Part shown: positions 9,084-35,482 of the stretch, in pieces
Position numbering within the stretch: position 1 is the stretch's first letter
Layout: the number at the start of each line of letters is the position of its first letter
Source: Negativicutes bacterium
GTDB taxonomy: Bacteria > Bacillota > Negativicutes > Anaeromusales > Anaeromusaceae
Length of the DNA stretch: 64,000 nucleotides
Direction: 5' to 3'
Assembly (NCBI GenBank): GCA_009929485.1
Contig: SAAJ01000003.1
Span: 62,001-126,000 of the forward strand
The notes under the pieces: generated by a model
What the model was told of the DNA's origin: nothing
Seen by the model: only the letters and a program-made list of their open reading frames with translations
Databases searched by the model: none
Position numbers and translations under genes: made by a program

Positions 9084-9167
9084 ATTTTCGCCCCTCTCCT
9101 CGTCTTTACAACAGCTAGTTATTGTCTTAGTTCTCCTTTTCCCAGCACTTTCCTGCCAGGATATAAA

Positions 9168-9270
9168 GAGTGAACAGGAGAACCGGAGTCGCGAGAGAGC
9201 ACGGAGATTGAACAAGAGTCGCGGGAGTCACGGAGGGTTCGACTGTGGGTTACGGAATTTTAACAGGAGT
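9168..9270 (+). repeat. Purine-rich dispersed repeat, copy 1
   Basis: Two or three degenerate units of the type GAACAGGAG...CGGAGTCGCGAG...ACGGAG. The unit 9168-9203 matches about 31 of 36 bases of 11663-11698 on the opposite strand, and 9208-9241 resembles 11402-11436. No reading frame is preserved. It sits between the ferritin terminator and the CoA-disulfide reductase start, in a 370-bp gap without genes. Confidence 0.6.
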
Positions 9271-9360
9271 ACGACGCCGCCGGATGCGGTTAGGGTCGGT
9301 TGCGCCATGGACGGCATAGCAACCGACGTCTATGCAGAAGCGCATAGCTCATAAAATTCC
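9254..9360. other. 107-nt multi-branched hairpin element
   Basis: Closed by a perfect 9-bp inverted repeat (GGAATTTTA at 9254-9262, TAAAATTCC at 9352-9360). Inside are three further hairpins: 9276-9290 (GCCGC/GCGGT), 9295-9327 (9-bp GTCGGTTGC/GCAACCGAC plus an inner 3 bp), and 9330-9347 (6-bp CTATGC/GCATAG). This is the shape of a structured RNA with a four-way junction, or of a small non-autonomous mobile element. Function unknown. Confidence 0.5.
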
Positions 9361-9414
9361 CTTTCGCATTTTTCGTGTATTTCGCGGTTCGTTTTATTAG
9401 TTTTGGTACAACAG

Positions 9415-35237: not shown

Positions 35238-35274
35238 AATAGTATCCTCCTGCTTACACTTCTTAGGGAGGTTC

Positions 35275-35417
35275 CTGCCAAGACGCATTGTCCCCGCGGT
35301 CACCCACGGGTTTTGTCGTCTTTTTGCGGCTGCAGGTCCGCCGAGAGGCATCCGCTGATCGTCTCGATGCTCCTCTTCCTCGTCCTCTTGACTGCAACAC
35401 AATCAAGAGCCAGCGCT
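35275..35417 (-). ncRNA. glmS ribozyme (GlcN6P-activated self-cleaving)
   Basis: Minus strand shows the characteristic order: cleavage-site context A/GCGCTGGC (cut between 35417 and 35416), then GACGAGGA, ATCGAGACGATC, GGCGGATGCCTCTC-like core (here AGCGGATGCCTCTCGGC), CTGCAGCCG and the 3' segment ending ACAATGCGTCTTGGC. It lies 38 nt before the gene. Glucosamine-6-phosphate would trigger cleavage and mRNA decay. Confidence 0.92.
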
Positions 35418-35482
35418 TCATGGTCGGCTTTGCTTGCCTTGCTGTTTCCACCTCCTTGGGGCAAAACCAGCCTGACAGTAAA

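Follow-up and report, generated by a model that had tools for sequence, protein, structure and literature searches.

A hairpin-rich intergenic segment from a Negativicutes genome is one copy of a multi-copy, intergenic, covarying element that is present at the orthologous site of one related genome and absent from that of another. Sequence and structure comparisons place it as a dispersed, structured non-coding element of several Negativicute families, related to the TwoAYGGAY RNA. As its best explanation we propose, with a probability of roughly 0.5, a mobile element of TwoAYGGAY-like type; RNA made from transcribed copies would bind CsrA, such that the copies together would form a dispersed CsrA sponge. 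Here, the window is the whole 64-kb stretch of DNA that was analysed, G000 is the genome from which it derives, and G001 and G002 are congeners in which the orthologous site was compared.

A stable fold with a smaller conserved unit

The preliminary description of this DNA reported a perfect inverted repeat enclosing three hairpins in a gene-free gap. All of these stems were recovered, including the three inner hairpins in the predicted fold, and the segment does lie between the start of the CoA-disulfide reductase gene and the end of the ferritin gene. The parts of the fold beyond its first two hairpins are as follows.

9254-9262/9352-9360, + strand: 9-bp inverted repeat (closing stem), 100%, confirmed by sequence check
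9254-9262, + strand: 5' arm of the 9-bp closing stem, within the common flanking repeat GGAATTTTAACAGGAG (copy comparison)
9330-9347, + strand: third hairpin, focal copy only, absent from the G002 ortholog and the other inspected copies
9352-9360, + strand: 3' arm of the 9-bp closing stem, focal copy only, without counterpart in the G002 ortholog and the inspected copies

Compared with dinucleotide shuffles, the 107-nt fold had z-scores of -3.5 (+ strand) and -4.1 (- strand), and none of 200 shuffles was as stable; equally stable shuffled folds, named in the preliminary description as evidence against it, were thus not seen. Without composition correction, an equally low minimum free energy (MFE) was found in 25 of the 1,598 same-length segments of the window; because low MFE alone is not unusual there, the argument for an element rests on comparison.

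In a search of G000 itself, similarity among copies usually ended near query position 79, so that neither the third hairpin nor the 9-bp closing stem is common to the copies; the inspected copies and the G002 ortholog rule both out as parts of the unit. What survives of the reported structure is the fold itself, and what does not is the 107-nt closed structure as a unit, the conserved unit being a 62-nt core with the first two hairpins. Conserved terminal inverted repeats, as in a MITE, were not found around the unit: other copies lack the closing stem of the focal one, and inverted-repeat ends were noted, by eye, only at the G017, G023 and G033 copies.

A covarying two-hairpin core

To describe the core, we used a covariance model, R1, comprising 31 distinct copies of the window's genus and no RF01731 member.

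9270-9331, + strand: two-hairpin core, 62 nt, model R1, TwoAYGGAY-like (94 scored genus copies at >=30 bits; covariation)
9273-9275, + strand: 5' side of P1, GAC, pairing with 9328-9330 (two of three pairs invariant, third lost in 12 of 31)
9276-9290, + strand: hairpin 1, 5-bp stem, loop CGGAU at 9281-9285 (four of five pairs with compensatory changes)
9291-9292, + strand: UA linker joining hairpins 1 and 2 (unchanged in 70 of 70 copies)
9295-9327, + strand: hairpin 2, 9+3 bp, with the 9-bp stem at 9295-9303/9319-9327 and a 3-nt 3' bulge at 9316-9318 (compensatory changes at five pairs among the 31 sequences)
9307-9312, + strand: loop 2, AUGGAC (ANGGAN, candidate CsrA-type site; ANGGAN in 68 of 70 copies)
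9328-9330, + strand: 3' side of P1, GTC (31-sequence alignment)

Across the 31-sequence alignment, 96.9% of cells were paired, and 9 of the 20 pairs (39 cells) had changes on both sides, which none of 500 shuffles reached; slid-pairing controls collapsed. Homologues with compensatory changes, whose absence would have spoken against the feature according to the preliminary description, were thus searched for and found. The left arm of hairpin 2 came in 15 different versions (GTCGGTTGC, GCCGGATGC and GCCGGCAAT among them), mostly matched by their right arms. Within the hairpin stems, G-U and A-C oppositions stood at 51:19, a count that is not a formal test because the copies are related; the G-U excess favours the motif (+) strand as the one acting as RNA.

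The invariant or nearly invariant unpaired bases were the UA linker, the GA of loop 1 and the A.GGA of loop 2, the second and sixth bases of which are free. Loop 1 contained GGA in 30 of 70 copies and was otherwise mostly GUGA; with hairpin 1 lacking GGA in the other 40 copies, many modules have only one candidate CsrA site.

A below-threshold relative of TwoAYGGAY

Rfam searches of the window at gathering score returned a glmS ribozyme (35270-35428, - strand) and a TPP riboswitch (1268-1369, - strand) and nothing else. The best in-register Rfam fit of the focal hairpins was TwoAYGGAY (RF01731), a family described by Weinberg et al. in 2010 (PMC2864571), at 16.5 bits against a gathering cut-off of 43; other sub-threshold matches, to miRNA, Xist and similar families, were rejected as chance. 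A search of 20 other loci with copies gave no RF01731 match at E<=1, and G000, G001 and G002 gave none either. In the opposite direction, R1 matched in 7 of 30 canonical RF01731 loci at E<1, each time weakly (E 0.035-0.77) and always within the stretch, and on the strand, that RF01731 itself matches; one genome (G017) has both RF01731-like and R1-like modules. Tandem hairpins within an outer stem, as in TwoAYGGAY, are present, with an outer stem of only 3 bp that is incomplete in 12 of 31 sequences, and, where that family has AYGGAY in both terminal loops, loop 2 is ANGGAN in nearly all copies and loop 1 has GGA in fewer than half (CGGAU in the focal copy). The element is named TwoAYGGAY-like and is not filed as a member of RF01731. 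That the fold matched no known RNA family, as first described, thus nearly holds, the RF01731 match being in register and below the cut-off.

In three further genomes (G017, G023 and G033; L070-L095), TwoAYGGAY-like cores sit centrally in elements of 150-200 bp whose flanks differ between genera and whose ends appear, by eye, to be imperfect inverted repeats.

Dispersal and an empty orthologous site

Model R1 matched 37 times in G000 and 32 and 26 times in two congeners. The focal copy is part of a mosaic whose presence varies at the orthologous site.

9157-9404, no strand: whole mosaic insertion, with 19 bp instead in the orthologous gap of G001 (orthologous-gap comparison)
9172-9253, + strand: purine-rich units of the host repeat that carries the core, GAACARGAG..GGAGGGT.CGA..GGGTTACGG (copy comparison)

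Among relatives, checked for empty sites as the preliminary description had proposed, the reductase-ferritin gap of G001 is empty of the mosaic and that of G002 is filled, carrying the core with a different 3' flank; by this comparison, both the third hairpin and the 3' closing-stem arm of the focal copy are local to its lineage. Elsewhere, the core occurs within a different host repeat or nested inside another core. The 45-bp purine-rich units (GAACARGAG...GAGGGTACGA) themselves form inverted pairs flanking gene terminators, at 9172-9253 of the window and at many loci of the genus (for example, L016, L018 and L052). A palindromic block (GTATTTGAGACTTTT...AAATCTTGTCTCAAATGCAG), which is a further repeat dispersed in the genus, lies near the module in the G002 reductase-ferritin gap (L333) and in L053 and is missing in G000.

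These comparisons bear directly on the suggestion that the fold serves the CoA-disulfide reductase gene as a leader in cis. The element does lie upstream of that gene in both G000 and G002; however, the orthologous G001 site is empty, which contradicts a leader, other copies adjoin unrelated genes, and the conserved loops are on the strand antisense to the reductase gene, leaving this reading very improbable. The two other proposals made for the fold, a small RNA and a non-autonomous mobile element, were each borne out in part, by RNA-like covariation in the one case and by dispersal and the empty orthologous site in the other.

A selfish or passive intergenic repeat (a BIME- or REPIN-like mosaic), in which the hairpins would serve spread as DNA or replication and have no RNA role, is the strongest rival, and one that we consider somewhat less probable than the CsrA sponge. 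Orientation relative to genes appears random, as such a repeat would have it: genus modules were on the same strand as the upstream gene in 47 cases and on the opposite strand in 38, with no bias indicating selection for sense orientation to that gene. The modules also avoid divergent promoter gaps (6 of 88), occur as nested and mosaic copies, have an empty site and land beside terminators. A repeat of this kind leaves unaccounted for, however, the two-sided compensatory changes, the invariant ANGGA loop and UA linker, the G-U excess on one strand and the association with csrA (see below). Nor is a REP-type transposase required, since the Y1 transposase is missing from 13 of 47 TwoAYGGAY genomes; no module was found within the 3-kb loci that hold the two G000 Y1 genes, and REP/RAYT mobilization was rejected on these two grounds.

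Co-occurrence with csrA

TwoAYGGAY has been proposed to bind CsrA on the basis of its loop motifs (PMC4333381), and the modules described here display GGA in a loop on a stable stem, as a CsrA-sequestering RNA does. Each of the three congeneric genomes has a single csrA, with L4 and R44 kept. Across a phylum sample of 299 genomes, TwoAYGGAY (scored as present at an RF01731 match of E<=0.01) occurred in 47, many with 5 to 9 scored matches, up to the 9 candidates that were scored. Among these 47, csrA was present in 44, compared with 169 of the 252 other genomes (Fisher P = 8e-5), and two of the three exceptions are only 63% and 75% complete. The association persisted among good assemblies (40 of 41 with TwoAYGGAY versus 159 of 226 without; P = 6e-5), at the family level (23 of 23 TwoAYGGAY families versus 94 of ~121; P = 0.0015, with families hand-counted from tables) and at the class level (11 of 11 genomes with R1 or RF01731 matches versus 18 of 29; P = 0.019). 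The Y1 transposase, used as a control gene, was found in 34 of 47 TwoAYGGAY genomes and 132 of 252 others (P = 0.016). Shared ancestry or a flagellar lifestyle may underlie this co-occurrence with csrA.

Placement behind terminators and rRNA operons

In all four rRNA operons of G001, a module follows the 5S gene at a distance of ~80-120 nt, on the rRNA strand and beyond the rRNA terminator (L170, L181, L190 and L156). In G013, a normal 5S gene is followed by a 5S remnant in which the module replaces positions 81-89; remnants of a similar kind occur in G030 and G015. The TwoAYGGAY-like modules in 5S remnants at the rRNA operon ends of these three genomes are at the following positions.

L142, 246-304
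L152, 548-606
L143, 115-174
L151, 471-530
L145, 491-553
L153, 149-210

A second terminator follows the rRNA-operon module in G013 and G030. Several rRNA terminators were read by eye, the automatic scan having missed them because their T-tails pair with A-tracts. With an rRNA terminator between operon and module, transcription of the module would need read-through.

Most of 45 exact pattern matches (L197-L241) were in Sporomusa silvacetica, in which the element is uniform and ~140-160 nt long, with a 5' hairpin, the two-hairpin core and its own terminator (a hairpin and T-rich tail). The start of these elements immediately follows T-tracts (6.7 T per 12 nt on average), many of which belong to a visible terminator hairpin. 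One locus, L235, contains element-behind-element copies.

Placement near 3' ends and behind terminators is also what one would expect of a processing or protection element at transcript ends (an RNase III site or 3'-end stabilizer) that is not a CsrA ligand, and the bulged stem 2 could be an RNase substrate; because such a role leaves unexplained both the conservation of the A.GGA loop amid varying neighbours and the link to csrA, we regard it as improbable.

A proposed mobile CsrA decoy

Under the CsrA sponge model, the element would spread as a small non-autonomous unit, landing behind intrinsic terminators in Sporomusa and, in other genomes, within 5S rRNA remnants or intergenic repeats of other kinds. 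Read-through would transcribe the AYGGAY strand of some copies, and the hairpin loops of this RNA would bind and sequester the cell's single CsrA; if module loops bind CsrA wherever they are transcribed, then the copies together would act as a dispersed sponge. Several observations count against this model: the absence of orientation bias in the genus, the single candidate site in many modules, the position of the rRNA-operon modules behind a terminator, a score below the RF01731 cut-off and the lack of a promoter-like site at the focal copy. For the focal copy, whose loop-bearing (+) strand runs antisense to the genes on either side, the search upstream gave no promoter-like site on the + strand, and this copy may therefore be silent. 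A more speculative extension, which we consider rather unlikely, is that elements landing behind terminators, including those of rRNA operons, would through read-through RNA from dozens of loci tie the free CsrA pool to overall transcription and growth rate.

TwoAYGGAY was described in 2010, and the literature that we found gives it no proven function; the multiple copies, presence and absence at sites, terminator and rRNA placement and near-confinement to csrA genomes together suggest one that is testable. They also suggest a possible route by which decoys of a regulator spread, and TwoAYGGAY-like modules may explain some 5S rRNA expansion segments and remnants.

Comparison with known systems

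The element shares with TwoAYGGAY two adjacent GGA-loop hairpins closed by an outer stem, the same GCC-AUGGAY-GGC sequence at the tip of hairpin 2, mutual recognition by covariance models and multiple copies in many Bacillota genomes. It differs in scoring below the Rfam cut-off, in having a 62-nt core that is closed by a P1 of 3 bp and lacks a long outer stem, in the 3-nt bulge of stem 2, the UA linker and the frequent GUGA of hairpin 1, and in the embedding of the core in other repeats and 5S remnants.

Expansion segments and remnants of 5S rRNA at rRNA operon ends have been described from other taxa (Stepanov and Fox 2021, PMC7812874, the text of which names neither TwoAYGGAY nor CsrA). Those remnants, like the ones described here, have a hairpin module inserted in a 5S-derived remnant behind a normal 5S gene and terminator, whereas the insert here belongs to a genome-wide repeat family. 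In Escherichia coli, the rrA, rrB and rrF sRNAs, produced by read-through from between two rRNA-operon terminators, bind CsrA (PMC8144298); the modules share with them CsrA-type GGA hairpins behind an rRNA operon terminator, but most module copies lie outside rRNA operons. Finally, ANGGA-loop hairpins as candidate CsrA sites are common to the modules and to sRNAs of the CsrB/CsrC/RsmZ type, which concentrate many sites in each sRNA, whereas the TwoAYGGAY-like element distributes one or two per copy over dozens of loci.
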